This document shows, piece by piece, positions 4 to 15,686 of a DNA stretch of 64,000 nt; positions within the stretch are counted from its first letter, which is position 1, and the number at the start of each line of letters is the position of its first letter. The notes below the pieces were generated by a model. That model worked only from the letters and a program-made list of their open reading frames with translations. It had not been told where the DNA came from and searched no databases. Both the position numbers and the translations under genes were made by a program. The stretch comes from Brevundimonas sp. AJA228-03 (GTDB lineage: Bacteria; Pseudomonadota; Alphaproteobacteria; Caulobacterales; Caulobacteraceae), in assembly GCF_017795885.1 (NCBI RefSeq), contig NZ_CP059297.1, positions 1,493,001-1,557,000 of the forward strand, written 5' to 3'.

Positions 4-2379
4 TCACAGGAACCTCCTCTGGTCATGGAAGGGATCGCGCCAGAGCGCGTAGTCGTCGCCGACCTCGGCGCGGAGGCGGTCGAGCAGGGCGGTGGTCTCG
101 GTGCGGCCGGACAGGACCGACAGGGCGTCGTCCATGCCGCTCAGGTCCAGTTCCACGACCACGCTGTCGTGGCCCTGCTTGACCAGGAAGCGGTGCGACT
201 CCGGGGTCAGGACCTCCCGCACCAGACGGAACTCCTCCTGGGTCAGGCCGAAGCCGTCGATGTAGTCGCGCGCCTGGCCGTGGGCGTTGGGAAGGAAGAT
301 CTTGGTCGCGCACTGTTCGAGGATGGCGTGGGCGATCGGGGAGCGCAGGGCGTCGGCGGGCGATTGGGTGCCGAACACCATCAGGGCGTTCTGCTTGCGC
401 CAGGTCTTGAGCCCGTCCTGGGCCAGTTCTGTGAAGGCCGGGTCGCCCAGCACCTTCCAGAACTCGTCGATGTCGAGGACGAGACGGCGGCCGTCGACCC
501 GCTCGGCGATGCGGTGGAACAGATACAACATCGCTGGTGTACGGACCTCGTCGTGGTCGAGCACCTGAGTGATGTCGAAGCCGGCGAAGCGGGCCTCCAG
601 ACTGAGGGCGTCCTCGTCATTGTCGAGGACCCAGCCGAGGGGACCGCCCCTTTGCCAACGCTCCAGCCGCGCGCCCACGCCGCCGGCGTCGCCCTGGCCA
701 AGGAGGCTGCGCAGGGCGGCGATGGACCGGCGCTCGCGCGGCAGGGCCTCCAGCGCGGCCACGCCCTGATCGATGGCGCGGGCCTGGGGCACCGTCAGGG
801 TTTCGTCCGGCCGGGCGACGAGGGTCCGGACCAGGCGGACGAGGAAAGCGCGGTTGGCGGGACTGGGTGAGAGCGCCTTGAACGGGGCGAAGCCGGTCGG
901 TTCGCCGTTGCGCAGGGCGAGATAGGTCCCGCCGCAGGCGCGGACGAAGATCTCGGCGCCCCGGTCCTTGTCGATGAAGAGTTGCTGGGCGTCGAACCGC
1001 TCAAGCTGCGCCAGCATGAAGTTCTGGACCACGGTCTTGCCCGACCCCGAAGGCCCGCAGATGAAGGTGTGGCCGAGATCGCCGACGTGGAAGTTGAACC
1101 AGAAGGGCGAACCGGCCGTGGTGCGCAGCACGGCGACGGCCTCGCCCCAGTGGTTGCCGCGGGCCTTCCCAACCGGATGGGCGTGGAAGGGCGCCAGGGC
1201 GGCGAAATTGCGCGAGGTGATCGCGGCCGGTCGGGTGCGGCGGGCGAAGGCTCCGGGGAACTGGGACCAGAAAGCCGCTTCCAGGCCCAGATCCTCGCGC
1301 GCCACGACGAGTCCGGAGTCCGCGAGGATGGCGCGGGCCCTGGACAGGTAGTCGGCCAGCGCGGTCGGGGTGTCGCCGTGCACAAGGATCGACGCCTGGT
1401 GTTCGCCCATGACGAAGCGATTGCTGACGAGGTCGTCGAGCGCGTCCGACAGGCCGGTGATCTGCGAGGCCGCGCGGTCCCGCGCCGAGACCATCTGGTT
1501 CTGCTTGCGCTCCATCACCGCGCGAGCCGAGGCCTTGGAGAGGAAGGCGAAGGACTGGCTGATCACGAAGCCGAACCGGACGCTCAGCAGCTCGTCCCAC
1601 AGCCCGGGCCGGGTCGTGGCCGGATATTCCTTGACGGCCAGGACCCCGGCGTAACGGGCCTCGGCGGCGTCCCGCAGCTCCAGCGTCTCGCGTCCGAAGA
1701 TGGCGCGCACGGTGTAGACCGCCGCGCCGAGGTGGCCGAACACGATCGGGACCGGCGACCGGCGCCCGGTCAGCAAGAGGCGCATGACCTCCATCGGCTC
1801 GGAGAACCACAGGTCGCCGCGCTCATAGAGACCGAGCCGGCGCGGCGCATAGCGCCCGAGGTACTGAACCAGGTCGCGTCCGGCCTCCTCGATACGCTGG
1901 ATATGGGCGACCTCGACTTCGGCGTCTTTGCGGCGCGCCGCCCTCAGACGCTTGGCGAGCGCCGCGGCGCGGTCGCCGGCGTCCCGGCCCGGATGCAGGA
2001 CGAGGGTGACGAACAGCTCATTGATCCAGAGCCGGCGTCCCGCGACACGATCGTCGTAGAGGGCGCCGAGCTCCCCGGCGAAGGCCGAGCGGAAGCCGGC
2101 GGACCGCTCCAGCTCGACCGGGCGGCGGACCACATGATGCCAGATCGCCAGACGGTCGTCGGCGAGATTGCGCCAGGCCTGGTTGAGCTTGACGTGCCAG
2201 TCGTTGAGATCGCGGGTGTCGGCGGTCTCGAAGCTGGCGCCGTCGACTTGGAACACCATCATCAGGGCGCCGCTGTCGAGCGCTACCACATGGTCCGAGA
2301 CGTGACGGGCGTAGGGCAGGTGCGGCCGGGCGTCGGCCTCGCGTCGCAGCCGCGCGGGAGAAACGCCGCCCTCAGCCAC
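4..2379 (-). CDS. virB4: VirB4/TrbE-type conjugation ATPase
   Basis: This is the type IV secretion ATPase that powers pilus assembly and substrate transfer at the inner membrane. The 791-residue product has a CagE/TrbE-like N-terminal half, a Walker A motif GPSGSGKT with Lys near residue 448, and a Walker B region reading RRLVLDIDEFWKV near residue 635. I chose the GTG at 2379 because it overlaps the virB3 stop and gives the family-like N-terminus LPYARHVSDHV; the longer open frame reaching 2598 only shadows virB3. The length fits VirB4 proteins (about 790-830). The operon must continue left of the window. Confidence 0.93.
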   Translation of the reverse strand: MAEGGVSPARLRREADARPHLPYARHVSDHVVALDSGALMMVFQVDGASFETADTRDLNDWHVKLNQAWRNLADDRLAIWHHVVRRPVELERSAGFRSAFAGELGALYDDRVAGRRLWINELFVTLVLHPGRDAGDRAAALAKRLRAARRKDAEVEVAHIQRIEEAGRDLVQYLGRYAPRRLGLYERGDLWFSEPMEVMRLLLTGRRSPVPIVFGHLGAAVYTVRAIFGRETLELRDAAEARYAGVLAVKEYPATTRPGLWDELLSVRFGFVISQSFAFLSKASARAVMERKQNQMVSARDRAASQITGLSDALDDLVSNRFVMGEHQASILVHGDTPTALADYLSRARAILADSGLVVAREDLGLEAAFWSQFPGAFARRTRPAAITSRNFAALAPFHAHPVGKARGNHWGEAVAVLRTTAGSPFWFNFHVGDLGHTFICGPSGSGKTVVQNFMLAQLERFDAQQLFIDKDRGAEIFVRACGGTYLALRNGEPTGFAPFKALSPSPANRAFLVRLVRTLVARPDETLTVPQARAIDQGVAALEALPRERRSIAALRSLLGQGDAGGVGARLERWQRGGPLGWVLDNDEDALSLEARFAGFDITQVLDHDEVRTPAMLYLFHRIAERVDGRRLVLDIDEFWKVLGDPAFTELAQDGLKTWRKQNALMVFGTQSPADALRSPIAHAILEQCATKIFLPNAHGQARDYIDGFGLTQEEFRLVREVLTPESHRFLVKQGHDSVVVELDLSGMDDALSVLSGRTETTALLDRLRAEVGDDYALWRDPFHDQRRFL

Positions 2380-2707
2380 GGGACAGCTCCGCCAGACGAT
2401 AGCGGCGGACGAGGGGGAGGGGCGTCGCCGAGCTCCCGCCCCAGAGCGCCGCGTTGCGCGACCGGCCCTTGGTTTCGACATAGACGAACAGCAGCCGGAA
2501 GGCGTTGTGGTCGGCCCGGCAGATCGCCCGGAACACCAGGTGCAGGGCCGGGGCCACGAGCAGGTAAAGCAGGCTGCCTCCGACGAGGAAGACGACACTC
2601 GACACGATGACGTTAACGCCCATGGCCTCCATGGGCACGCCCAGGATCATAGCCGGCCGCGTGCAGGCCAGGAACAGCGGATCCTCCGTCAGACGTTCGT
2701 CAGCCAT
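2372..2707 (-). CDS. virB3: VirB3/TrbD-like T4SS inner-membrane protein
   Basis: Small T4SS component that works with VirB4 in pilus biogenesis. The 111-residue protein has the family signature DPLFLACTRPAMILGVP near the N-terminus, followed by one long or two adjacent membrane segments (about residues 25-55). It overlaps the 60-residue ORF upstream and virB4 downstream by a few bases each, so the genes are translationally coupled. The C-terminal tail is soluble and basic. Confidence 0.85.
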   Translation of the reverse strand: MADERLTEDPLFLACTRPAMILGVPMEAMGVNVIVSSVVFLVGGSLLYLLVAPALHLVFRAICRADHNAFRLLFVYVETKGRSRNAALWGGSSATPLPLVRRYRLAELSRG

Positions 2708-2882
2708 GGGGGCCTCCCGCAGACAGGCGCGACAGGGCCAGGCCGATAGCCAGGCCGGAACCGAGACCGGCGAGGATCTGGGCGAACCGTTTGGGCGAGA
2801 TCAGCCTCAGGCCCAGCATCAGGCACAGGGCGAGAAACAACGACGCCGACCCGATCCACAGCCAGGGCGCGGCGGCGGTCAT
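2700..2882 (-). CDS. Small two-segment membrane protein in the T4SS operon
   Basis: A 60-residue ORF lies between virB2 and virB3. Its ATG overlaps the virB2 stop (ATGA) and its stop overlaps the virB3 start. It has two hydrophobic stretches (about residues 6-22 and 35-50) separated by a basic turn, LRLISPKRF. I do not recognise the family. The canonical virB order has no gene here, but the tight coupling on both sides argues that it is real and belongs to the secretion machine. Confidence 0.6.
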   Translation of the reverse strand: MTAAAPWLWIGSASLFLALCLMLGLRLISPKRFAQILAGLGSGLAIGLALSRLSAGGPHG

Positions 2883-3181
2883 CAGGCGCCGCCGGTGATC
2901 AGGTTGACGATCTCGGCCGCGCCGAAGACCACGACGATGCCGAGCACGACGATCGCCGCCCGGCGCAGGTCGAACAGGCCGAACATCCACAGGATGCCGA
3001 CGATCACGACCGCCAATACCGCCAACAGACGGGCGGTATTGCCCGTGAGCATATCGACGACGTTCTGGAGCAGGCCTTCGACATTGGCCGAGGCGAGCGC
3101 CGGCTGAACCAGGAGAAGACTGGCGGCGAGGGCGATAGCGCCGGCGGCGCCGGCCCTGCGGACGGTCGCGGGTGCGGTCAT
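2882..3181 (-). CDS. virB2: VirB2/TrbC-like major pilin
   Basis: Conjugative pilin precursor of 99 residues. It has a signal-type N-terminus (about residues 8-30, ending near PALASA) and two hydrophobic helices separated by a short basic loop FDLRRAA, the usual TrbC/VirB2 architecture. It starts two bases after the VirB1 stop. Cleaved and membrane-stored subunits would polymerise into the pilus. Confidence 0.85.
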   Translation of the reverse strand: MTAPATVRRAGAAGAIALAASLLLVQPALASANVEGLLQNVVDMLTGNTARLLAVLAVVIVGILWMFGLFDLRRAAIVVLGIVVVFGAAEIVNLITGGA

Positions 3182-3182
3182 C

Positions 3183-3821
3183 TCAGAACTCCGTGTCTGG
3201 GGCGGCTGTGAAGGTGAGGACGGCGCTCATCCGGGCGCGCGCGAAGACGTCCCAGTCGGGCGGCGGGGACTGCGGCGCGGCCCGCCGCGGGGGGCTATCG
3301 TTCGTTGCGGGTCGAACGTCCCCCAGGGGCAGGACGCCCAGGGACGCGGCGGCGGCCTCGACCCGGCCCACGTAGCCGTTACGAAAGCCGCGCTCCGGAT
3401 GGCCGGTGTTGTATCGAGAGAGCGCCACCCTCAGGGTCGTCTGGCGATCGACGCCTTCGGCAGGCCGATAGCCCGCGCGCAGGACGACGCCGGCGGCGGC
3501 GAGGTTGCGGCACGGGTCGAAGGCCGCCTCGACCGACAGGCCGAGCCAATCCAGATTGTCGCTGTTGATCTGGGCCACCCCGAGATCGAGATTCGCCCCG
3601 CGCGCCAGCAGGCCGCGGGCGATGCGCGCCGCGTCGGCGGCGTCACGCGGAGGCCGGGATGGGCGCGGACCCCGGTTCACCCCGATCGCGACCGGGTTGA
3701 AGCGGCTTTCCGCATAGGCGATGGCGGCCAGGGTTTCCGGGGCCACCTGCGGCGCGCAGGCCTGGGACAGGCTGAGGATCAGATTGAGGTCGAGCAAGGC
3801 GGGCTCCATCGGGAGCCCCAA
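3183..3821 (-). CDS. virB1: VirB1-like lytic transglycosylase
   Basis: Peptidoglycan hydrolase that opens the wall for T4SS assembly. The SLT fold is visible: the catalytic-Glu region reads AIAYAESRFNPVAIGVN near residues 33-50, followed by GVAQINSDN and ALSRYNTG motifs. An internal ATG at 3809 (MEPALLDLN) is an alternative start. No clear signal peptide is seen. First gene of the virB operon; the next upstream gene on this strand is the LuxR-type regulator, 52 bases away. Confidence 0.85.
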   Translation of the reverse strand: MGLPMEPALLDLNLILSLSQACAPQVAPETLAAIAYAESRFNPVAIGVNRGPRPSRPPRDAADAARIARGLLARGANLDLGVAQINSDNLDWLGLSVEAAFDPCRNLAAAGVVLRAGYRPAEGVDRQTTLRVALSRYNTGHPERGFRNGYVGRVEAAAASLGVLPLGDVRPATNDSPPRRAAPQSPPPDWDVFARARMSAVLTFTAAPDTEF

Positions 3822-3873: not shown

Positions 3874-4140
3874 CTACGGTAGGAAGGTCCGCGGTTCCGC
3901 AGGTCGCCCCGCCTGGCCTGCGAGGCGCGCCACCGCCTGGATGCGCGTGCGAACGCCGAGCGCGCGGCAAGCCAGCATCAGATGCTCGTCAACGGTCCGC
4001 CCCGAGATGCCGATCTGTTCGGCGATCCGGGGAGAGCTCAGACCCTGGGCCGCCAGGGCGAGACATTGGCGCTGCCGGTCGGAAAGACGGTCGGTCAGGT
4101 CCGAAGCGGGGAACGGGTTACTGGACGAATACGCGGACAT
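3874..4140 (-). CDS. Stand-alone LuxR-type HTH protein
   Basis: An 88-residue protein that is essentially only a GerE/LuxR C-terminal HTH: the region LSDRQRQCLALAAQGLSSPRIAEQIGISGRTVDEHL is the classic motif, followed by a GVRTRIQAVARL helix. I chose the ATG at 4140 because longer forms would overlap the XRE gene upstream; the ribosome site is weak. It has no receiver or ligand domain. It lies directly before the virB operon and probably regulates it together with the XRE gene. Confidence 0.75.
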   Translation of the reverse strand: MSAYSSSNPFPASDLTDRLSDRQRQCLALAAQGLSSPRIAEQIGISGRTVDEHLMLACRALGVRTRIQAVARLAGQAGRPAEPRTFLP

Positions 4141-4201
4141 AGACTCAAGCACAGACCCAACGGTGGGTTTGCGGCAAGCCCGCAGGTTCTCGGCGGGGCG
4201 T

Positions 4202-4708
4202 CTACGGTGTCGGATTCCCGGAGGATCCTCCATCCTCGCCGTCGCCGGGCGCAACCAACTTTCCCAACCTCTGCTGCAACCATGCATTGGCGGCGCTGTC
4301 TCGGCGGACGGACTGCAGGGCGAGGTCCTTCAGCGCCTTGGTGAAGGTGTTGATGATCGTGCGTGCGTCGAGTTCGCCGAGCACGTCGCCGACCTCGGCA
4401 TCGAACTCCTGCAAAGCGACCATCAGAATGGTCATCAACTTGTTGTCGGCGGTTCGCAAGGCGAACTCCGGTGATCCAAGAGCGAGCGCGGCCAGGATCG
4501 CGTAGGCGTCGCAATCCGTCGCTTCGGCGAAGCGATGAATTCGTTCGAGATTCACGCGCCCGCCGCCGGACTCGAAGTGTTCGTATGATCGAAGGGCCAT
4601 GCCCATCGCCTGAGCGATCTCGGTTGTCTTCATCCGACGATGGGTCCGGATCAGCCGAAGCGCAGCCGACAGGGTCTCGCTCTGGGACTGGCGTTCGGCA
4701 CGATCCAT
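4202..4708 (-). CDS. XRE-family HTH regulator of the T4SS region
   Basis: A 168-residue protein with an N-terminal XRE helix-turn-helix (about residues 20-60: LRLIRTHRRMKTTEIAQAMG, then SYEHFESG) and a helical C-terminal domain that may dimerise. I prefer the ATG at 4708 over the longer frame to 4843 because the N-terminal extension is unlike any domain. It lies upstream of the small LuxR-type gene on the same strand, a pairing that suggests joint control of the conjugation operon. Confidence 0.75.
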   Translation of the reverse strand: MDRAERQSQSETLSAALRLIRTHRRMKTTEIAQAMGMALRSYEHFESGGGRVNLERIHRFAEATDCDAYAILAALALGSPEFALRTADNKLMTILMVALQEFDAEVGDVLGELDARTIINTFTKALKDLALQSVRRDSAANAWLQQRLGKLVAPGDGEDGGSSGNPTP

Positions 4709-4975: not shown

Positions 4976-5593
4976 GTGAAGACAAGGGATCCCTATCACC
5001 TCGCCTTGACGGCCCTCGCCCAGTTCGCCGGAGCCGGCAGGTTCGGCTGGGGCATGCCGCTGGTCACGACAGCCGTGGCCGAGGAACTGGGGTTGAGCCC
5101 GACGCCCGTGCGTGAGGCGCTCGCGCGGTTAGCGGGCGAGGGCATCATAGAGCATCGACCTGGGCGCGGATATTTCGCGCCCAGCCCCAGTTCGTCGGAT
5201 ATCATTGAACTTTATGAGCTGCACGGGCGATTGGCCAATTGGGCGCTGATCGGTTGCGGGAGCAGCCTCGTCTGGCCCCTCGCAGAAAAAGCTGGTGCCC
5301 CGCAGGAGCGCCTGGAACGGCTGTTCGTCCAACTCGTCGAGGCGTCCGGAAACGGAGCTCTTATCCGCGCTCATCGCCGCACGGTGGCGCAGCTACGGCC
5401 GATCCGCGTCGTTGAGGAGCGTGTGGCTCCCCTGTCCTCGGAGGTCGTCGATCGCATGGAAGGCCTTCTGTCCCAGGCGCGGCTCGATCATCTGATACCT
5501 TTAGTCGAGACATACCACAGTGAGCGTTCGGAGCATGCGCAGCCTGTGTTCGCCATGATGCGGAAATCAGCAGAAAGTATTGACCAAATATAG
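4976..5593 (+). CDS. GntR-family regulator upstream of the lasso operon
   Basis: A 205-residue protein with a winged HTH at about residues 15-70: VAEELGLSPTPVREALARLAGEG followed by a RPGRGYF wing are the GntR hallmarks. A helical, FCD-like but short C-terminal effector domain follows. I chose the GTG at 4976 because AGGCGGG lies just upstream and the region before it reads as non-coding. It ends 73 bases before the lasso precursor and runs in the same direction, so it may be a local regulator of the lasso genes. Confidence 0.8.
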   Translation: MKTRDPYHLALTALAQFAGAGRFGWGMPLVTTAVAEELGLSPTPVREALARLAGEGIIEHRPGRGYFAPSPSSSDIIELYELHGRLANWALIGCGSSLVWPLAEKAGAPQERLERLFVQLVEASGNGALIRAHRRTVAQLRPIRVVEERVAPLSSEVVDRMEGLLSQARLDHLIPLVETYHSERSEHAQPVFAMMRKSAESIDQI

Positions 5594-5666
5594 ATTGAAA
5601 ATAGAGGATGTTGAATGACTTACTGCCCGACCGGAGCATCCCGTTCCGGCTTTAGGAGGCAATGTC
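5594..5666 (+). promoter_or_regulatory. AT-rich leader before the lasso precursor
   Basis: Short intergenic stretch with unusually low GC at its left end (from about 5578). It ends in a strong Shine-Dalgarno, AGGAGG at 5654-5659, seven bases before the precursor ATG at 5667. It is a likely site for precursor transcription start or control. I cannot pin down -35/-10 boxes. Confidence 0.4.
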
Positions 5667-6011
5667 ATGTTGAAGACCCTGTCTGGCCTGATCCGCCTCG
5701 GATCGGCCGAAAGCCAAACCCGCGCGGAGGTCGGCGTCGAGAAAGCCGAACTGAATCCGATCTATCACTACGACGACGATGGCGGTCGCATCGGCCTGCA
5801 GCGCCTCGGCGCCGCCGGTCTGGAAACCCGGGCCACCGGTCCAGGCCCGAAGACCGAGCTCAACCCCGTCTTCACCTACGAAGACACCGGGGTGCGCGCC
5901 GAGGTCGTTCGCCTGGGGGCGGCGGAAACGCGGACGCGGGCTGACTCCGAGGAAGGGCAGCTGGAGCTGATCCCGGTGCAGCGCTGGGAAATGGGCGGCG
6001 CAGCCCGCTGA
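5667..6011 (+). CDS. Triple-core lasso peptide precursor (A)
   Basis: A 114-residue ORF built of three 36-residue units. Each unit has a leader motif RLGxA (residues 10-14, 46-50, 82-86), a Thr-Arg pair (18-19, 54-55, 90-91), then a core beginning with Ala (20, 56, 92) with Glu at core position 9 (28, 64, 100) and Pro at position 12. The cores begin AEVGVEKAELNPIYHYDDDG, ATGPGPKTELNPVFTYEDTG and ADSEEGQLELIPVQRWEMGG. The leader motif and Thr at -2 match astexin/caulonodin-type precursors, where residue 1 is joined to an acidic side chain at 7-9. The B and C enzymes follow directly. Normal precursors have one core and are about 40-60 residues. Confidence 0.85.
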   Translation: MLKTLSGLIRLGSAESQTRAEVGVEKAELNPIYHYDDDGGRIGLQRLGAAGLETRATGPGPKTELNPVFTYEDTGVRAEVVRLGAAETRTRADSEEGQLELIPVQRWEMGGAAR

Positions 6012-6069
6012 CCTGTCGCAAGGCGTCGGCCCGAGAAGCCGGCGCCTTGTTGCCTTGAAGGATGCGGCG

Positions 6070-6708
6070 ATGGGCTCTGACCTGAGAGGCGATGTTCATG
6101 TCGCCTGTGTTGGCGACGCCATGGTCCTGCTCGACCTGGCGGCCGACAGCTATTTGTGCCTGCCCAATGGCGCGGAGGACCTGATCCGCGGCGCGGACGG
6201 CGCCCCGATCTTTGGCGCCGGGGTGGTCGGGCGCGCCCTGGCCGAGGCCGGACTGCTGGCCGAGGGACCGCGACCGCGCGTGCCGCCGCCGCCGCCCCGG
6301 CCGACACAGACCGTGATCCACGGGCGGCCTTCCCGGGCGCCGAGCCTTCTCGACTGGGGGGCGGCATTGGCCGCCACGGCCGAGATGCGCCGCATAAGGT
6401 CAGGGGCTGGGGTCGAGGCCTATCTCGCCGGCGCCGCCGACGATGGGAATGATCGGACCATGGACCGCGTCGCTGAAGCGGCGCGGACCTTCTGGCGGCT
6501 CGCGCCTTGGCTTCCGATCGAGGGCGAGTGTCTCGTTCGATCGGCGTTGCTGATGCGTTTTCTTCGCCGACGCGGACTGCGGGCCGACTGGGTCTTCGGG
6601 GTGAGGCTCTTCCCGTTCATGGCCCACTGTTGGGTCCAGGCCGATGATCTGTGTCTGAACGACGATGTGGAACGGCTGACCGCCTATAGCCCGATCTATT
6701 GCCGATGA
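6070..6708 (+). CDS. Lasso B protein: fused RRE and transglutaminase-like leader peptidase
   Basis: Removes the leader from the lasso precursor. The 212-residue product has an N-terminal PqqD-like recognition element (about residues 8-60) that should bind the RLGxA leader, a Pro-rich linker (about 75-90), and a C-terminal transglutaminase-like protease. Visible catalytic residues are Cys154 in GECLVRS, His186 in FMAHCWV and Asp198 in CLNDD. I chose the ATG at 6070, which has AAGGA seven bases upstream, over the TTG at 6055. The gene starts 58 bases after the precursor and overlaps the cyclase start (ATGA at 6705), so the two are translationally coupled. Confidence 0.9.
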   Translation: MGSDLRGDVHVACVGDAMVLLDLAADSYLCLPNGAEDLIRGADGAPIFGAGVVGRALAEAGLLAEGPRPRVPPPPPRPTQTVIHGRPSRAPSLLDWGAALAATAEMRRIRSGAGVEAYLAGAADDGNDRTMDRVAEAARTFWRLAPWLPIEGECLVRSALLMRFLRRRGLRADWVFGVRLFPFMAHCWVQADDLCLNDDVERLTAYSPIYCR

Positions 6709-8462
6709 CCTGGGCCGATCACGGGTATCTGGTGATTCAGACGAGCCGGCCCAGCGCCGAAGACGCCGCCGTCCTGGACCAGGCGCGCGGAGCGCTTCAG
6801 GCGGTTGGGTGGAAATGCGCGATCTCGGTGGAGGGTTTGGACATCTATCTGGGACCTCGCTCGCCCCTGAACGTGCGTCTCGTGCACCGCCGTCATGTTC
6901 TGATCGGGGAGTACCGCTGGCGTGATCGGGCCCTGTCCGCCGTCATCGGCTGCAGCCGTGGCCCGGTCGACCTGGGACGCAGCGCCGTCCGCGCCGGCTG
7001 GGGGCGATACATCCTGGCCTGGAGCGCTGACGACGAGCGCCTCGGCCTGCTGCGGGACCCGAGCGGGGCGATCGATTGCCTGGCCTGGCGTCGCGGGGGT
7101 CTTCGTATCGCCGCAGATCAACTGCCGCCCGAGGTCGATCTGCTTCTGCCTGAGACGGTCGCGATCGACTGGCCAGTGTTGGGCGAGATCGCCGACCAAC
7201 CTGGTCTGCTGAGCGATCGGCCGCCCCTGCGTGGAATAACCTCGGTTACGCCAGGCGACGTCGCCCTGGTCGGTGATCAGATAGAGGCGCACACAGTGTG
7301 GCGTCCCGCCGAAGCTTGCCGGGTAAATTCCTGGGACGACTCGCCCGACGCCCTGCGTCGTGTGGTCGATGGGGCCGTGGCCGGCGTGTCGGAAGGGCAC
7401 TCGATCCTGCTCGGTGAAATCTCTGGCGGGCTGGACTCCGCGATCGTCTCCAGCAGCCTCGCGGCCGTCGGTGCAAGGTCCAAGGCGTCCTACGTCAACT
7501 ATTTCGGGGACTGGGCCGAGGGCGACGAACGCGCCTATGCGAAGGCCGCGGCAGACAAAAGTGGTGCGCGCCTGACGATGGCGCGCAAGCCCGTCGCGGC
7601 CATCACGCCGCAGATGCTCGAGCCCCTCGGCTGGGGTTTCCGACCCGCGCTTCATGGCGTCGATGTCGCTTACGATGAGGACGTGGCCCGACGGATCGGC
7701 CGCGTCGGAGCCACTGCCCTGATCACGGGACAGGGCGGGGATGCCGTATTTTTCCAGGCTCCGGATCCCCAGGTGGTCATCGACCGGCGTCGCCGAGAAG
7801 GGCTTCGTGGTCTGGACCCACGCTACTGGGCCGAGGTCGGACGTTGGACGCGCCATTCGGCCTGGACCCTGGGCGTTCTGGCGCTTTGGCCGCCCCGGCC
7901 TTCGACCCGAGACCGCCGCTGTCATCCGTGGCTCGCCGACGCCGATGACATACCGCCTGCAAAGAGAGGGCAAATCCTTCGGCTGGCGAACTGCCAGTTG
8001 TTCTGGAGCGATTGCCGACGGGCGCGGGCGGCCCAGTTGCTCCACCCTTTGCTCACCCAGCCGGTGATCGAGCATGTCATGGCGGTCCCTGCGGATCGGC
8101 TCATCCTGGGTGTGAGGGATCGGGGACTGGCCCGCGTCGCCTTCTCCGAGCGGTTGCCACCCTCGATCCTCGAACGCCGGGACAAGGGCGACCTCAGCCA
8201 ATTCTATGGCCGCGTCGTCCTCTCCAGCCTGGTCGAGCTTCGTCCGTTTCTTCTCGATGGTCTGCTGAGTGAACACCGCCTGATCGACCGGGTCGATCTG
8301 GAGCGCGAACTGACGCCGGAGCGTCTGGTGTGGAGTCCCCTCAGCAACCGTCCACTACTGCTGGCGGTCCTCGAGACCTGGGCCAGGCACTGGACCGAGC
8401 GGATCGAGCGGCGTGGGCGGCCCCAGATAGCGCGCCAGCCAGCCGAGGATCCGATCATGTAG
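6705..8462 (+). CDS. Lasso C protein: asparagine-synthetase-like lasso cyclase
   Basis: Adenylates the acidic side chain (predicted Glu9) of the core and closes the macrolactam on the N-terminal amine, trapping the tail. The 585-residue protein has a glutamine-amidotransferase-like N-terminal half without an obvious N-terminal catalytic Cys. It also has the PP-loop ATP motif SGGLDS at residues 240-245 and ITGQGGDAVFF near 345. The ATG overlaps the B stop. Its last 108 bases run antisense to the end of the isopeptidase gene, so the C-terminal tail after about residue 550 may be poorly conserved. Order A-B-C differs from the A-C-B order usual in related clusters. Confidence 0.9.
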   Translation: MTWADHGYLVIQTSRPSAEDAAVLDQARGALQAVGWKCAISVEGLDIYLGPRSPLNVRLVHRRHVLIGEYRWRDRALSAVIGCSRGPVDLGRSAVRAGWGRYILAWSADDERLGLLRDPSGAIDCLAWRRGGLRIAADQLPPEVDLLLPETVAIDWPVLGEIADQPGLLSDRPPLRGITSVTPGDVALVGDQIEAHTVWRPAEACRVNSWDDSPDALRRVVDGAVAGVSEGHSILLGEISGGLDSAIVSSSLAAVGARSKASYVNYFGDWAEGDERAYAKAAADKSGARLTMARKPVAAITPQMLEPLGWGFRPALHGVDVAYDEDVARRIGRVGATALITGQGGDAVFFQAPDPQVVIDRRRREGLRGLDPRYWAEVGRWTRHSAWTLGVLALWPPRPSTRDRRCHPWLADADDIPPAKRGQILRLANCQLFWSDCRRARAAQLLHPLLTQPVIEHVMAVPADRLILGVRDRGLARVAFSERLPPSILERRDKGDLSQFYGRVVLSSLVELRPFLLDGLLSEHRLIDRVDLERELTPERLVWSPLSNRPLLLAVLETWARHWTERIERRGRPQIARQPAEDPIM

Positions 8463-10805
8463 GTCTCGCAGGTTGCCCGGACTCGCATAGGTGTGGCCCT
8501 CTCCGAAATAGGTGAGGAGGGCCGCTTCCCGGTCGAGCCGGTAGAGCGCGCCGAAAAGCGAGCCCATCCTGGCCGTATCCAGGTCCGATTCGATCAGGAG
8601 AACGGGCGCGCGCAGGTCATCCACACGGTACAGCGGGCTGGCCTCTACATAGGCCTCGGGGCGTTGCGCGAAAAAGCCGAACGAGCCTTGGCCGGTCTCG
8701 CCCCAGCCTGCCATCTGGCCGACCGGAACGCCCTCGTCAGGCGCGACGCGATAGAAGGCGGGCAACTCCATGGAGCGGCTCAGGTCTGCATAGCCGTTCG
8801 ACGCGATTACGGCGCGGAACCGATCGCTCTGTGTCGCGGCGCTCAGGACGCCGTATCCGCCGAAACTGTGTCCGATCAGGGCGACCCGATCCGCGTCGAT
8901 CAATCCCCGTCGGCCGGCCTCGTCCACGATCGCCAGGATGCGGTCGGCAAGGCCTTCCGCCGCCGGAGGCCCGCCAGGCTTGAGGGGAAGGCTGACGACC
9001 AGGACGGCATAGCCGGCCCCCGCAAGCACCACGGGGTTATTCTGCAGCTGTGTCGTGCCCGGCGACAGGGCCGCCGGCGCCGAGCGCGGCGCGGAGCCGG
9101 GATAGACCACGACAACGACGGGCGGCCGGGCGCCCTCCGGCAAACCCGGCGGCTGCAGCAGCCAACTGGTCAGGGGTTGGCCGTCGGGGCCGGTGTGAGG
9201 CACTGGCACGATCCGGCCCCAGTCGATGTCCCGCCACCCTGCGTTCGCGGGAGCGATCGCTTCAGCGCCGCCCGACCGGTGAACGCGCAGGCCGCTGTCG
9301 CCCCGATCGGTCAGATAATGCGTCACGAGGAAACTGGCGTCGGGGCCGGCCGCAAGGATCCGCTCGTCGGGCTGCAACGGCGTCACGCAAGTCTGACGGC
9401 GGTCGGCCAGACGTGACAGGCATGCCCCATCGACAAGGATGTGCGAGCCGGCCTCGAGCGCGCTGGGGTTCCACCGCTCCGGATTTCCGCCATCACCATT
9501 CGCACCCTGGCCCCAGAGCCGCCCGGCGGCTATACGGGCGCCGTCGCCGCCGAATCGATAGACGCCGTCTGACCTTTGGATCGCCGCGCGTCCGCGAAGC
9601 GACACGAGGCGTTCGGCTGGCTCAACGACCGGGACCCGAGGCTCGCCTGCCGCTTCCGGCCGCAACCAGACCCTGCCTCCAGTTCGCGAACGCGCCTGGA
9701 CGACAGGTTGAGCGCCATCCCAGCTCGCCAAAGGCACGGCGACCCCGTCCCAGGTCCGCTCGATCCAGGGTGAGTCCTCGCCCATCGTGAGCGGTCGGGC
9801 GCGGCCGTCTTGCCGGACCAGCCAGTAACGTCCGTCCTGATCGAAGTCGCCGCCAAGAGGGCGTCCGAAGACCAGAAGGCGGTTCGAGTCCGGCGACCAT
9901 GACAGCAGGTACATGGCCAGGTCTTCATCCGGCAGCGGCTGCCGGGTTGCGCCTGTTTCCAGGTCGACGAGCGTCAGCCGTCGGCGGCGGAGAGGGTCGC
10001 CGACCCGCAATGGCCTGCCGGGACTGGGTTGAAGGTCCTCGGCCTCCTCGAGGAGGGCCGCATGGCCGCCGTCCGGCGAGAGTCGAAGGTCGAACCATTC
10101 GCCCGAAGCCAAGGCCCGTGAACGTCCGCTGGCGACGTCGAGGGCGACAAGATTGGACGCCAGGGCCTGAGACCGGCTATCGCGCTGCCGGCCGCTGGGG
10201 ATGTAGACCGAGCTGGCGCCGTGGCCGCTCGCGGCTGTACGCCACAGCCGTTCGATCCGTGCCTGGGCCTGATAGCCGACGCGCATCGCCACGGGCGGAT
10301 CATCTAAGGGCCGGGCCACGAAGATCAGTTCGGTGGGCGAGCGCCAGGCGACCGTCCGTCCGAACTGGATCCATTCCGGCGTGAACGGATGCCAATCGAC
10401 GGCGCCGGTGTCGAGCGTGAGGACGCCCAGGCGCACACTGTTTTCGGTGACTCGGAAGACCACCATCCGTGCACCGTCCGGAGAGAAGGGGCCGGAAACA
10501 TAGCCGACATCGTGGCCGGAAGAAGCGAGCCGGACCTTCGGCTCGCCACCCGCAGCGGGGCGAACCTCGAGTTCGCTCAGCAGCCAGTTCACCGCCGTCG
10601 ACAGCGCATAGGAGCCGGCCTGATCATAGGCCGCCTGTCGTTCGACCGTGATCCACCGTCCGTCAGGACTGATGCGAACCGTGCCGGTGTCTTCGTGTCC
10701 GACGAGGTCATCGACGGTGAACGGCCGGCCGGTCTGGGCTGACGCGGGACAGACTCCGGCCAGGCTCGCCGCCAGGGCGAGCGCCAATAGCGAGCTCCGC
10801 ATCAC
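8355..10805 (-). CDS. Lasso peptide isopeptidase (AtxE2-like, S9 family)
   Basis: Exported hydrolase predicted to cut the isopeptide bond and linearise the lasso. The 816-residue product has a signal peptide (residues 1-23, ending ASAQ), a beta-propeller-like middle with repeated SPDG motifs, and a C-terminal alpha/beta hydrolase. The visible triad is Ser647 in GHSFGGY, Asp743 in ESDLDTA and His771 in GEGHTYA. It starts within the TonB receptor stop (ATGA) and so lies in the fecI-fecR-receptor operon. It converges on the cyclase gene with a 108-base overlap. The Pro-rich last 25 residues look like a tail beyond the fold. Confidence 0.92.
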   Translation of the reverse strand: MMRSSLLALALAASLAGVCPASAQTGRPFTVDDLVGHEDTGTVRISPDGRWITVERQAAYDQAGSYALSTAVNWLLSELEVRPAAGGEPKVRLASSGHDVGYVSGPFSPDGARMVVFRVTENSVRLGVLTLDTGAVDWHPFTPEWIQFGRTVAWRSPTELIFVARPLDDPPVAMRVGYQAQARIERLWRTAASGHGASSVYIPSGRQRDSRSQALASNLVALDVASGRSRALASGEWFDLRLSPDGGHAALLEEAEDLQPSPGRPLRVGDPLRRRRLTLVDLETGATRQPLPDEDLAMYLLSWSPDSNRLLVFGRPLGGDFDQDGRYWLVRQDGRARPLTMGEDSPWIERTWDGVAVPLASWDGAQPVVQARSRTGGRVWLRPEAAGEPRVPVVEPAERLVSLRGRAAIQRSDGVYRFGGDGARIAAGRLWGQGANGDGGNPERWNPSALEAGSHILVDGACLSRLADRRQTCVTPLQPDERILAAGPDASFLVTHYLTDRGDSGLRVHRSGGAEAIAPANAGWRDIDWGRIVPVPHTGPDGQPLTSWLLQPPGLPEGARPPVVVVVYPGSAPRSAPAALSPGTTQLQNNPVVLAGAGYAVLVVSLPLKPGGPPAAEGLADRILAIVDEAGRRGLIDADRVALIGHSFGGYGVLSAATQSDRFRAVIASNGYADLSRSMELPAFYRVAPDEGVPVGQMAGWGETGQGSFGFFAQRPEAYVEASPLYRVDDLRAPVLLIESDLDTARMGSLFGALYRLDREAALLTYFGEGHTYASPGNLRDLHDRILGWLARYLGPPTPLDPLGPVPGPGLEDRQQ

Positions 10806-13759
10806 CAGCTCCGGGTCAGCTGCAGGGACACGAACCGGCCCAGTACATTGGTGTTGGCCGCGTCGTAGGCCACGCCTTGGGGCGCGTCGTAAAACGGGGG
10901 ATCACGGTCGAACAGGTTCTGGACCGTGAGCGAAAGCATCGCCCCGGCGAGGACGCCGTCCTCCGGGGCGTATCGGACCAGCACATCAGCAGTCGTCCAT
11001 GACCCGATCCTGTTACCGACGAGGTCCTGGTACGATCCGACGTAGTTCAGGGAAGGGGCCACGGTCCAGGATCCGCGCGACCAACTGCCCGAGGTCCGGC
11101 CCCGAAGCCCGACCGGGAAATTGGGGCGGTCGACCTGAGAGACGGTGGGCGATGTCGGAGTCGGTTGAGCGTCAAAACGCTCCAGCCAGGTCATGTTCAC
11201 CGCCACGTTGAACGCGTTCGGGCCGAGATCGAAGCCGTAGTCGGCGGTGATGTCGGCGCCCTGAACTTGCACCCGCGCCGTGTTGACGTAACGCGCATCG
11301 ACAATCGCGCCGTAGGCGGTGGCGGGGAAAAGGTCCCGAAGACCCGTCGTCGGCAGATCGAGGATCGCCTGGATGGCTGCCCGATCGTCGGCGTTGTTGA
11401 TCGGGTCGAGCGTGCGAACGAACGGCGCCAGCGACGGGTCGCCCAAAGCCGTGAGAATGCTCTCCAGCGCCGGTTGGCCAATCCTGTTGTCGAAGTCGGT
11501 TCGAAAGAGGTTGACCCCGAACTGAAGCCCGGGGACCGCATCTGGCCGGACCTCGAAACCGCTGGTCCAGGTGTCGGCTTCCTCAGGTTGAAGATCCGGG
11601 TTGCCGCCGTACAGGATCATCGAGAGGATCTGTTGAGACCCCCGAGGCAGGATGGAGGGACTGGCGCTGGGCGCATCGTTCAGCTCGCGCAAGGCGGGCG
11701 CGCGAAATGAGCGGCCGTAGTTAGCTCTGAAGAGCAGTTCGTTCGTGGGCTTCCAGAGCACGCCGACCTTGGGACTGGTCGTCTGCCCCACGTCGCCATA
11801 GTCCTCAAACCGCGCCGCAAGGGAGAGCTCAAGCCGTTCCAATCCCGGGCGAGCGTTGTCGGCGCCGAAGAGCGGCAGGCGCACCTCGGCGAAGGCGGCC
11901 GAGACCTGTCGGTCCGTTTCCGTCGCTGCGCCCACGGCCGGCGCGCTCCCGGATGTGAATCCGGTGAACTGGCGCTCAAATGTTTCTTCCCGGAACGCCA
12001 GGCCCGCAGCCAGCCGCAGCGGGCCGCCCGGGAGATCGAGGATCGTGCCGCCGACCTGGAGATTGGCGGATGAAACGGTCGTGCGACTGTGGGTCCGCGT
12101 GTAGCCGGAGCTGATGAAATCGAGCACCGTGCTATTATTGATGAGCCCGTCGCCAAAGGGATTCAGATAGCCGTCCCGCACGGCGCTGAATGGCGTGGCC
12201 GGATTGTCCCCTACGGCTCCGAGCGCCTCCCGCAGATAGGTCGATTGAAGCGCGCCATCCGTTGCATTACGGCTTTCCTCGGATGAATAGGCGACATAGG
12301 CGTCGAGCTTCCAGTCCGCGAACAGATCAGCCACGCCGCCCACGGTGGCGCCGAAACTTTCCACCTCGCCACTGATGCGCGGAGCCGGAATCTCCTTCTG
12401 GAACGAATAGGCGACGGTGTGCGATCGCGCGCCGGCCGGCGACACGAAGAACGGATTGGCCGAGGTGACCGTCAACAGGGTGCTGATGGGGAAGGACACC
12501 GTCTCGTAGTTGCGTCGTCCGTAGCGCGCGTCGCCGCTGATCTCGAAGCGGTCGCCCAAGTCCTGCCGTGCGGCAGTGTAGACGCTCTCCCGGGTTTGAC
12601 GGGGGAGAACATTGACCCCGGCCCGGTGGTTCTCGAGGTTGATCTGCCCGGCGAGAAAATCGCCGGGCCGAAGGCCGACGCCCGCCTGACCCGGCGGGAT
12701 GGCGTAGGTCGGAACGTAGCTGCCTGAAGCCGCGTCGAACACGACGATGTTGCCCGGATTGCTGTAGTATTGCCTTCGGTCTGTTCCGCCGCGCCACCGC
12801 AGGTCCGCGTCGCTGGCGAGCCGCCTTTCCGACCCCGCCAGCGCCTCCCGATCATAGTATTCATAGGTGATCATCGCGCCGCCGCCGGTCCATCGCCGGC
12901 CGATCGTCTGTCCGAACTGATACTCGCCGCTCGCGCCGTCCCAGGTGTCGCCCAGCCGAATCCGGGTCTCCGCACCGTCGTAATCGTCGCGCAGGATGAT
13001 GTTCACCACGCCGCCCACCGCGTCGGCGCCGTAGAGGGCAGAAGCCCCGTCGAGCAGAACATCGACGCGTGCGATCGCGGCCGTGGGGATCGAGGAGACA
13101 TCGGCGAAGTCGCCCTTGGCCCCGGTGCCTGCCAGGCGTCGACCGTTGATCAGGACGAGCGTGGCGTCGCTGCCCAGGCCGCGAAGGTTCACGCCGTTCG
13201 CAAAGGTCGAATTGGTGCCGGATCGGTCGGCGCCGTTGTTCAGTGCGCCTTCGTTGGCGGTGCCGCCGAAATTCTGCGGCAGGCTGGCGAGCAGTTGGGC
13301 GACCGTCGCCCGTCCTTCGCGGTCCATCTGGTCGCGGGTCACCGTCACGACGGGCGACGGGCCATCGCCCGCTCCACGGATCAGGCTTCCCGTGACGACC
13401 ACTTCCTCGAGTTCGGTCGCTTCGGCTGCATCCGCGTCCGCTCGCGCCGAAGGGTCATAGAGGACGAACACATTGGAGCGGGTCCGCCGGTGCGACAGGC
13501 CGGTGTCGCGCAGCAACGCAGCCAAGGCGGCCTCGGCCGGATAGCTCCCGCTGAGGCCCGGCGATTGGCGGCCGGCGACGAGAGCGGCCGGGTACAGGAT
13601 CTGTTGCCCGCTCTGCTGGGCGAAGGCCGTCAGAGCGCGATCGAGCGGTCCCGCGGCGACGTCATAGCGTCTCACCGCATCCGCAGTTTGCGCGATCACC
13701 GGCGTCGCCGACGCCAGGAGCAGCGCGGACAGCGCTGTTGAACCCAGACCCATACGCAT
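10802..13759 (-). CDS. TonB-dependent receptor with STN signalling domain (lasso uptake/sensing)
   Basis: Outer-membrane beta-barrel transporter of 985 residues. It has a signal peptide (about 1-24), an STN domain (about 30-105; FAQQSGQQILYPAAL, GLSGSYPAEAALAALL) that contacts FecR-type partners, a plug with the TonB-box-like EEVVVTGS followed by VAQLLASLPQNFGG, then a barrel ending in Trp. The STN domain plus the adjacent fecR and fecI show that it is a signalling receptor. Its operon position with the isopeptidase indicates a lasso peptide ligand, which is an inference. An ATG at 13753 is an alternative start. Confidence 0.92.
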   Translation of the reverse strand: MRMGLGSTALSALLLASATPVIAQTADAVRRYDVAAGPLDRALTAFAQQSGQQILYPAALVAGRQSPGLSGSYPAEAALAALLRDTGLSHRRTRSNVFVLYDPSARADADAAEATELEEVVVTGSLIRGAGDGPSPVVTVTRDQMDREGRATVAQLLASLPQNFGGTANEGALNNGADRSGTNSTFANGVNLRGLGSDATLVLINGRRLAGTGAKGDFADVSSIPTAAIARVDVLLDGASALYGADAVGGVVNIILRDDYDGAETRIRLGDTWDGASGEYQFGQTIGRRWTGGGAMITYEYYDREALAGSERRLASDADLRWRGGTDRRQYYSNPGNIVVFDAASGSYVPTYAIPPGQAGVGLRPGDFLAGQINLENHRAGVNVLPRQTRESVYTAARQDLGDRFEISGDARYGRRNYETVSFPISTLLTVTSANPFFVSPAGARSHTVAYSFQKEIPAPRISGEVESFGATVGGVADLFADWKLDAYVAYSSEESRNATDGALQSTYLREALGAVGDNPATPFSAVRDGYLNPFGDGLINNSTVLDFISSGYTRTHSRTTVSSANLQVGGTILDLPGGPLRLAAGLAFREETFERQFTGFTSGSAPAVGAATETDRQVSAAFAEVRLPLFGADNARPGLERLELSLAARFEDYGDVGQTTSPKVGVLWKPTNELLFRANYGRSFRAPALRELNDAPSASPSILPRGSQQILSMILYGGNPDLQPEEADTWTSGFEVRPDAVPGLQFGVNLFRTDFDNRIGQPALESILTALGDPSLAPFVRTLDPINNADDRAAIQAILDLPTTGLRDLFPATAYGAIVDARYVNTARVQVQGADITADYGFDLGPNAFNVAVNMTWLERFDAQPTPTSPTVSQVDRPNFPVGLRGRTSGSWSRGSWTVAPSLNYVGSYQDLVGNRIGSWTTADVLVRYAPEDGVLAGAMLSLTVQNLFDRDPPFYDAPQGVAYDAANTNVLGRFVSLQLTRSW

Positions 13760-13852: not shown

Positions 13853-14839
13853 TCAGGCTGGAGGCCCAGACAGGATCACTGTGCCATCGGGCCGCCGCTC
13901 GGCTTTCACCGAATAGAGATCCTGCAGCGCGGCGATGAAGCCATCGGTGTCGCCGGTGTCGAAAACGCCGCTGACGGGGATATCGGCGATGTGCGAGGCC
14001 CGCAGATCAATCTTCTCGTCGCTGTAGCGATTGATCTCCGCCACCGCGGCCCGTATCGGCGTCGCCCTGAAGATCAGACGGCCGGTGGTCCAACTCGTTT
14101 CCTGGGCGATGTCGACGGTCGCCACCGCCGGACGCGGCGCCGCTGTGACCACTTGCTGGCCCGGGTTGAGCGACCATCCGGCGTCGCCTTGGGCGGTTTC
14201 CCGTACCGACACGCGACCCTCGACCAAAGTGACGCGCGCGCCGTCGCCCATCCGGCGGACGTCGAAACGGGTTCCGATCGCCGTAACGTCGGTGTCGCCT
14301 GCTGAGACCACGAAGGGCCGGGCCGGGTCGCCAGTCACGTCGAAGAAGGCCTGTCCCGACAGCAGCGCCACCGATCTCCGGTCGTCGCGCAGTCGGACCT
14401 GGATCCGTGACCCCGTGTCTAGGGTGACGCGCGACCCGTCATCCAGACGCACGGTGCGCTGCTCGCCAACGGCGGTCGCATAGTCGAGCGGCCTGTTGAC
14501 GGCCCAGAGCGCTCCGGCGGCGACGACCGCGACGGCGGCCAGCGCGACGCCGCCGAGCGGCGTCCAGAGCCGGGACACCAAGGCTCGCGCGCGGACGGGG
14601 GACGAGGCCTTGCCCATCGCTTCTGCCGTCAAGTCGCTGATGTCGGGGTCGCCCGCCAGGGTGTTGGTGGCGTTCCAGACGGATTCAACCCGTTCGTAGG
14701 CGCGTGCATTGTCGGGATTCCGTCGCCAGGCGCTGAACGCCTTGACGTCGTCCGTGGACACGCGCCGCTGGCTGAGGCGAGCAAACCAGGAAGCGGCTTC
14801 CTGCCGTCGGATGTCGAGGTCGCCATCGACCGTCATCAT
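13853..14839 (-). CDS. FecR-like anti-sigma/signal transducer
   Basis: A 328-residue protein with an N-terminal cytoplasmic FecR region (about 8-60, ASWFARLSQRRVS then FSAWRRNPDNARAY), one membrane helix near residues 105-122, and a periplasmic FecR domain with GEQRTVRLDDGSRVTLDTGS. A C-terminal secretin-like segment would bind the receptor STN domain. The start at 14839 has an AGGCAGGG ribosome site; 14836 is equally possible. It starts seven bases after the fecI stop. It should hold FecI inactive until the receptor is occupied. Confidence 0.88.
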   Translation of the reverse strand: MMTVDGDLDIRRQEAASWFARLSQRRVSTDDVKAFSAWRRNPDNARAYERVESVWNATNTLAGDPDISDLTAEAMGKASSPVRARALVSRLWTPLGGVALAAVAVVAAGALWAVNRPLDYATAVGEQRTVRLDDGSRVTLDTGSRIQVRLRDDRRSVALLSGQAFFDVTGDPARPFVVSAGDTDVTAIGTRFDVRRMGDGARVTLVEGRVSVRETAQGDAGWSLNPGQQVVTAAPRPAVATVDIAQETSWTTGRLIFRATPIRAAVAEINRYSDEKIDLRASHIADIPVSGVFDTGDTDGFIAALQDLYSVKAERRPDGTVILSGPPA

Positions 14840-14846
14840 ACCCTGC

Positions 14847-15335
14847 CTAATCGTCCAGCCGAGCGACGCAGTGCTCCAGCGCCTTCGACATCCGCCACTC
14901 GACGGTCTTGACACTGAGGCCGCGCGCCGCAGCGATCTCGGGATAAGTCATACCGCCAAAGCGGCTCAATACGAAGATGTCCCTATACAGCGGAGGCATG
15001 GTGAGGATGATCTGCTTCAGCATCAACTGTTCCGCCTGAGACGCGGACTCGCTCTGATCTTGGCCGAAATCGCCTGAGGACTCGCGTTGGCGCTTCAGAC
15101 GTCGGCTCTCGTCGCGCACCAGATTGAGCGCAATTCGCAGCAGGAAAGCCTTAGGATGCCGGATGTCCGCGCTCCGATAGGGAGCCGCGCGAAGATAGGT
15201 CTCCTGAACCACGTCGGCAGCCTGGTCGGCGCCGACGTGCGCCCTAAGCCGCCCATCGAGCCAGCCGGCATAGCGACGATAGAGACCGTTCAGGCCCTCC
15301 GCCGCTTCCGGTTTCAGCTCTTTGGCATCGGTCAA
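14847..15335 (-). CDS. FecI-like ECF sigma factor
   Basis: ECF sigma factor of 162 residues with sigma-2 (ADQAADVVQETYLRA) and sigma-4 (PPLYRDIFVLSRFGGMTYPEIAAARGLSVKTVEWRM, read in two parts) regions. I chose the TTG at 15335, which has GGAGA six bases upstream and gives a typical FecI length; the open frame continues to 15647, but that extension is not sigma-like. It heads the operon fecI-fecR-receptor-isopeptidase and probably transcribes it when the receptor reports ligand. Confidence 0.85.
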   Translation of the reverse strand: MTDAKELKPEAAEGLNGLYRRYAGWLDGRLRAHVGADQAADVVQETYLRAAPYRSADIRHPKAFLLRIALNLVRDESRRLKRQRESSGDFGQDQSESASQAEQLMLKQIILTMPPLYRDIFVLSRFGGMTYPEIAAARGLSVKTVEWRMSKALEHCVARLDD

Positions 15336-15686
15336 CGCGAATCTCCGGCCTCCGGGGAGGGACGGGGAATCCGAAGACGAGATCGCGCAGGCTCCGCACC
15401 CCGGGCGGGCGCACGGGTTCGGGCCGCTGACAAGCGACAGGCGCGTGAGACGCGCGTCGTTGAGTTTGACTTCGCACAGGGGATTCCAGGCCCCTGTCGG
15501 CGCGGACGCCGACACCCGAGCATGAATCAAACGGAATCCAGACGCAAGCCGGAGGGGGCGGGCGTTGGAATCCTCTGCGAATAAGGCCCGCTTCAACCCC
15601 GCCCGCACCGATCGGAAGGCCGCAAAAAAGCGGCGGAAGGCCCGCAAAACATTGACGTTGCCCGCCGGCGAAGCCCCCGTGTACGG
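15336..15686. other. Divergent intergenic region, fecI / luxR-type gene
   Basis: About 350 bases between the FecI start and the small LuxR-type gene, which point away from each other. Promoters for both are expected here. I see a short tract of repeated GCGG/GCCC runs but no clear operator, RNA gene or terminator. Confidence 0.4.

Follow-up and report, generated by a model that had tools for sequence, protein, structure and literature searches.

The 64,000-nucleotide stretch of the Brevundimonas sp. AJA228-03 genome analysed here (contig NZ_CP059297.1, positions 1,493,001 to 1,557,000 of the forward strand; hereafter the window) carries a lasso peptide cluster whose precursor gene, at positions 5667-6011 on the + strand of the window, encodes a 114-residue protein built of three tandem leader-core units in a 36-residue register. 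The usual lasso precursor has one leader and one core (PMC13352647), whereas here three of each lie in a single open reading frame (ORF), and the triple leader-core ORF is therefore a variant of the lasso precursor. Its sequence predicts that the chain is cut after each Thr-Arg by the leader peptidase B encoded next to it, after which the freed cores would likely be closed and threaded by the cyclase C into three different lassos.

The precursor and its three units

The precursor gene is preceded by an AGGAGG ribosome-binding site (5654-5659, +), which reads directly from the sequence and lies 7 nt before the ATG. In the encoded protein, cores start at residues 20, 56 and 92, with spacings of 36 and 36. 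Each core is preceded by Thr-Arg (T18-R19, T54-R55 and T90-R91), and RLG recurs at residues 10-12, 46-48 and 82-84. T18, T54 and T90 thus place at position -2, the leader end, the Thr that is the usual recognition mark in lasso precursors (PMC10368454). Every core begins with Ala1 and carries Glu9 (E28, E64 and E100), in agreement with the small first residue and the Glu or Asp at positions 7-9 that characterize lasso cores, and Pro stands at position 12 in all three (P31, P67 and P103). The exact 36-residue register and the Ala, Thr-Arg, RLG, Glu9 and Pro12 positions had all been given in an earlier note made from the sequence alone, and translation together with unit alignment reproduces each of them. 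Leu at core position 10 and an aromatic residue at core position 16 (Y35, Y71 and W107), neither of which that note mentioned, are likewise common to the three units, as are Leu-Gly at -9/-8 and Ala at -6. Pairwise identity between the units is 11 to 14 of 29 residues.

On the + strand, leader 1 (residues 1-19, 5667-5723) is followed by core 1 (residues 20-41, 5724-5789; Ala1/Glu9/Tyr16), a linker with leader 2 (residues 42-55, 5790-5831), core 2 (residues 56-77, 5832-5897; Ala1/Glu9/Tyr16), a linker with leader 3 (residues 78-91, 5898-5939) and core 3 (residues 92-114, 5940-6008; Ala1/Glu9/Trp16), each leader ending in Thr-Arg. The putative C-termini of cores 1 and 2 are put at residues 41 and 77 because the cores of one-unit relatives are 21-23 residues long. 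Around these ends, in the linkers of the internal units of fused precursors (5781-5804 and 5889-5906 in the window, for example), Gly20 is found in 62 of 71 units, Arg22 in 43 and Ala23 in 41; the Arg-Ala step, which resembles the leader cut at TR-A, might mark a further site of processing.

The B gene (6070-6708, +) starts 59 nt downstream of the precursor and encodes a putative N-terminal RRE-like part joined to a transglutaminase-like leader peptidase, with Cys151, His183 and Asp195 in the numbering of 6079-6705. The B protein scores 83.8 bits against NF033537 (lasso_biosyn_B2; curated cut-off 33) and also matches PF13471. The C gene (6705-8462, +) encodes an asparagine-synthase-like lasso cyclase (PF00733, 66.5 over a cut-off of 21) with SGGLDS at residue 240; C falls below the cut-offs of both NCBIfam cyclase models that it matches (NF033561 and NF033535).

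Fused and separate precursors in related genomes

A profile of the precursor matches 41 of 131 genomes of the genus. In a set of 41 cluster loci that were compared, each contains both B and C. The tandem motif, which the earlier note had proposed to look for in related genomes, occurs there as intact fused precursors in 20 of the 131 (the window's included), 13 of them with two units and 7 with three. Another 20 genomes match solely as separate one-unit genes; this group was read in 16 genomes, with G021, G063, G090 and G100 left out. Named records belong to Brevundimonas, B. intermedia VKM B-1499 (L048) having three units and B. bullata HAMBI_262 and Brevundimonas sp. MYb52 two, and three-unit forms occur in records of both named isolates and metagenome-assembled genomes (MAGs). 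In one genome of 89% completeness (G062, L031/L061) the precursor frame is broken in the first unit; intact near relatives of that precursor exist among metagenome proteins. Two clusters per genome are seen in four cases, L049/L068 (G083), L055/L067 (G148), L069/L077 (G140) and L063/L064 (G149), and G083 and G148 each hold one fused and one unfused cluster.

At family level, 52 of 390 genomes match, in 3 of 22 genera, and at order level 15 of 398, in 2 of 59 genera. Two matches outside the genus were read, the other nine being left out: G156 has a fused pair and G419 a separate pair. Searching proteins with a profile built from the fused forms gave 62 matches, and among those read none has more than three units, under a search length limit of about 183 residues that would miss much longer chains. 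One metagenome protein (P0028) is a three-unit variant without exactly leader 2, so that core 1 is directly joined to core 2; it comes from one contig only and may be an assembly fault. Class-wide, a scan for the B2 family gave matches in 28 of 289 genomes. A loose unit pattern applied to 30 class-wide loci found a tandem in the window's only, but it also picked up few plausible single precursors and is thus no evidence for a lack of fused precursors in other groups. Spread on plasmids was considered and rejected, the precursor having no match in 72,556 plasmid records. A scan of viral contigs for B was empty, but it is little informative, because it used patterns taken almost exactly from the B of the window.

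The precursor itself has no Pfam or NCBIfam match, as might be expected if the ORF encoded a structural repeat protein unrelated to lassos, or if it arose from an assembly or reading-frame artefact. Either would be most surprising given the intact fused forms in 20 genomes, the single-contig genome of the window, the three-unit forms in isolate and MAG records alike, and a neighbouring B gene above its curated cut-off. The homologues read in genomes all sit in lasso clusters and no other protein family in Pfam or NCBIfam matches the repeat, whereas the earlier note had regarded homologues outside such clusters, or a repeat belonging to an unrelated family, as fatal to its proposal. We rejected a structural repeat protein on these grounds. 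The adjoining B and C, and the separate and fused relatives at the same locus, bear out the proposal of a lasso precursor with three leader-core units.

Conservation of the core marks

To describe the units across the family, 66 distinct fused proteins (the window's included) comprising 137 units were assembled from the loci and the protein matches. Thr-Arg, a small residue at position 1 and either Gly or Cys at -8 were built into the pattern used to find units, and their constancy is accordingly no test; Glu9 and position 16 lay outside the pattern. Glu9 is present in 136 of the 137 units, the sole exception being the last unit of P0021, which has Lys, and an aromatic residue occupies core position 16 in 137 of 137. 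Internal units have Tyr16 without exception (71/71), and last units have Trp in 55 cases and Tyr in 11 (n = 66). Ring positions 2-8 are variable, with entropies of 2.1-3.1 bits. Constant ends with a variable ring are the pattern expected of a family of different lassos.

Between the window and its closest relative (L041) there are 12 synonymous differences, spread 3/4/5 over units 1, 2 and 3, and 1 nonsynonymous difference. That these differences are mostly synonymous, and that the same pattern recurs in 66 fused proteins, argues against a chance repeat. In all 12 pairs and all 26 unit comparisons, nonsynonymous divergence (dN) is below synonymous divergence (dS); the counts are small, and the pairs overlap and are non-independent.

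These data bear on whether the last core, with Trp16, might alone become a lasso, the upstream units being spare leaders or spacers that raise RRE affinity. The final unit does end at a stop codon like a classical precursor, last units strongly resemble each other, and additions to the tail usually lower lasso yield (PMC13352647), a point that weighs against internal cores being threaded with a leader as tail. However, spacers would have no need of the Glu9 and Tyr16 that are kept in 71 of 71 internal units; moreover, internal units match one-unit genes that have their own stop codons, and dN is below dS in internal units too. We therefore regard a single product from the last core as rather improbable, and favour three lassos from the three units.

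From separate genes to a fused chain

Elsewhere in the genus, this locus has its units in separate one-unit genes, in fused pairs or in fused triples. One-unit relatives sit between the GntR-family regulator gene and B, as pairs or, in L076 and L078, as three genes; the third precursor of these two loci has Gly1, Glu8 and an aromatic residue at 15, suggesting an eight-residue ring. In the tabulated one-unit pairs, the first gene has Tyr or Phe at position 16 and the second Trp. Fused two-unit proteins keep this Tyr-then-Trp order, and three-unit proteins read Tyr, Tyr, Trp. When the window's units are scored against those of other proteins, units 1 and 2 do best with first units and unit 3 with last units.

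A tree of B and C (37 rows, 754 columns) took 37 of the 41 loci; L044, L045, L048 and L060 were dropped as coming from the same genome as kept rows or being near copies of them. In this tree, the 19 fused rows form one side of a branch with support of 100/100. The named outgroup rows are not separated from the rest by a single branch, so the group taken as sister to the fused clade varies with the rooting. The tree program warned of long branches by which L062/L079 are joined to the other unfused rows, and the data include short proteins, namely the C of L052 (327 residues) and L064 (489 residues) and the B of L049 (156 residues).

By identity, L062 and L079 are the unfused pairs closest to the window (B 44-46%, C 41-42%), whereas the other unfused rows share 33-39% in B and 35-38% in C. 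In both, the two precursor genes lie in one frame, with TGA and four codons from the stop to the ATG; the five other unfused loci measured have a first gap of 92-98 nt, with the genes out of frame. Judged by sequence, the layout of L062 and L079 looks like the state just before fusion. That one-unit precursors are the general rule is, together with the root position, the basis for reading the direction as fusion and not fission. On the B and C tree, two adjacent one-unit genes, a Tyr16 type first and a Trp16 type second, would have fused once. A single origin of the three-unit form was rejected, since forcing the five three-unit rows into one clade gives a log-likelihood difference of 212 and a p-AU of 1.7e-51. 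Because these five rows form no single clade and three-unit forms stand at two places in the tree, the third unit was gained at least twice, lost several times or moved between clusters; on the same tree, a second Tyr16 unit would have entered at least twice. These data are best read as pointing to a polyprotein of lasso peptides that arose when precursor genes fused and that lengthened by gaining units.

Proposed maturation

Taken together with its likely origin by fusion and growth by unit addition, the precursor is probably a natural polyprotein that yields three lassos through three TR|A cuts, the internal ones threading with the next leader as tail. In the proposed scheme, B would bind each leader through its putative RRE part and cut at TR|A; in paeninodin, B1 captures the leader and passes it on to B2 (PMC5067487). 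C would then join the freed Ala1 to Glu9, and the aromatic residue at position 16 would act as the steric plug. Since the macrolactam needs a free Ala1 amine, each core must be cut from the preceding unit, and the repeated leaders fit this demand of lasso chemistry for a cut and a free amine per core. The cuts would release core 1 with leader 2 (36 residues), core 2 with leader 3 (36 residues) and core 3 (23 residues), so that the two internal lassos would be threaded with the following leader still attached as a tail. An internal leader would thus have two roles in succession, initially as the site by which its own core is recognized and later as the tail on the preceding lasso. With one water lost, the calculated [M+H]+ would be near 2429.137 for residues 20-41, 2331.162 for 56-77 and 2524.225 for 92-114, and 3864.963 (20-55) and 3840.999 (56-91) for untrimmed internal products. 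Lasso cores do mature with long C-terminal extensions (PMC13003496, PMC7549694, PMC13352647), and whole proteins or an extension of 98 residues are tolerated on astexin-1 and pandonodin (PMC7549694, PMC13003496).

Host carboxypeptidases may then trim the internal tails back towards the plug. No obvious tail-trimming enzyme is found in the cluster, and the internal lassos might instead stay untrimmed, as mature 36-residue products that still have the following leader for a tail and may rebind the RRE. The chemistry requires such an intermediate in any case, and 36 residues is near the 33 of pandonodin (PMC13352647). However, endogenous carboxypeptidases shorten lasso tails to the plug in cells (PMC13352647) and the one-unit relatives have cores of just 21-23 residues, which makes untrimmed end products unlikely, and we retain trimming of the internal lassos as the preferred course.

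Other genes of the cluster and its surroundings

The GntR-family regulator (4976-5593, +; PF00392, 40.8 bits, cut-off 27) is encoded upstream of the precursor, as it is in related clusters. Between the precursor and B lies a predicted RNA hairpin with a 13-bp stem (6018-6050, +; -27.9 kcal/mol, z -2.23), and 5 of 200 shuffled sequences fold equally well. The hairpin is a possible attenuator and may determine how much precursor is made relative to the enzymes. Downstream, a gene on the opposite strand (8355-10805, -) encodes an S9-family peptidase (PF00326, 73.2 over 22.6) with GHSFGG at residue 645, a candidate lasso isopeptidase. Its score against NF033523, the AtxE2 family, is 73.3 with a cut-off of 400, and from its sequence the product is classified just as an S9 peptidase. 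It is followed by genes for a TonB-dependent receptor with an STN domain (10802-13759, -; PF00593 136.1, PF07715 66.7, PF07660 42.5), a FecR-like anti-sigma factor (13853-14914, -; PF04773, 84.1 over 24) and an extracytoplasmic function (ECF)-type sigma factor (14847-15647, -; PF08281, 53.4 over 25.7), the listed start of which is probably too far upstream. At the other end, positions 4-3821 (-) hold type IV secretion genes, namely VirB4/TrbE-like (PF03135), VirB3, TrbC/VirB2 pilin and transglycosylase genes, after which a LuxR-type regulator is found at 3874-4287.

Comparison with known systems

The caulosegnins of Caulobacter segnis are made from three precursors with one enzyme set (PMC13352647). 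Likewise, one B/C pair serves several leader-core units here, and the unfused relatives in the genus share the caulosegnin layout of two or three separate precursor genes; unlike in caulosegnin clusters, the window's units form one polypeptide with repeated leaders. As in the astexin-2/3 clusters of Asticcacaulis, B, C, an S9 peptidase, a TonB-dependent receptor and FecR are adjacent (PMC7549694, PMC13352647), but the window's peptidase is far below the AtxE2 cut-off and its precursor is fused. The engineered fusions of astexin-1 with GFP or a leucine zipper, and of pandonodin with 98 residues, also present a core with a long C-terminal extension (PMC7549694, PMC13003496); in contrast to these, the window's extension occurs naturally and consists of the following leader-core unit.

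Three core peptides in one precursor with one enzyme set are also found in microviridin AMdnA (PMC5934393). AMdnA belongs to a different enzyme class (ATP-grasp), and the window's precursor has a leader before every core; Pfam scans of the listed neighbouring genes found no ATP-grasp domain of a microviridin-type modifying enzyme. The lasso route seems to require a leader before every core, as each core needs its own cut and a free amine. Microviridins differ in that the several cores of a precursor are modified with the leader still attached (PMC5934393).

Among the papers listed in searches of an open-access library, none describes a multi-core lasso precursor; subscription papers are mostly outside this coverage, and we limit the claim of novelty for that reason. 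In a 2026 review, terms for a multi-core precursor or for a single or same precursor are absent (PMC13352647). The enzymes and the core marks are of a known lasso type; what would be novel is the fused multi-unit precursor layout.

Precursor finders built for a single short leader-core ORF may miss such fused genes. If the proposed maturation is true, lasso enzymes would act on substrates linked in a chain, threading cores to which a natural leader tail of 14 residues is attached, and natural leader tails would achieve what engineered fusions merely imitate. The precursor would then offer a modular scaffold for several lassos from one gene. Within one genus, one locus occurs with its precursor genes separate, as an in-frame pair divided by one stop, and as two-unit and three-unit fusions, and these four layouts make the step from a gene set to a polyprotein traceable.
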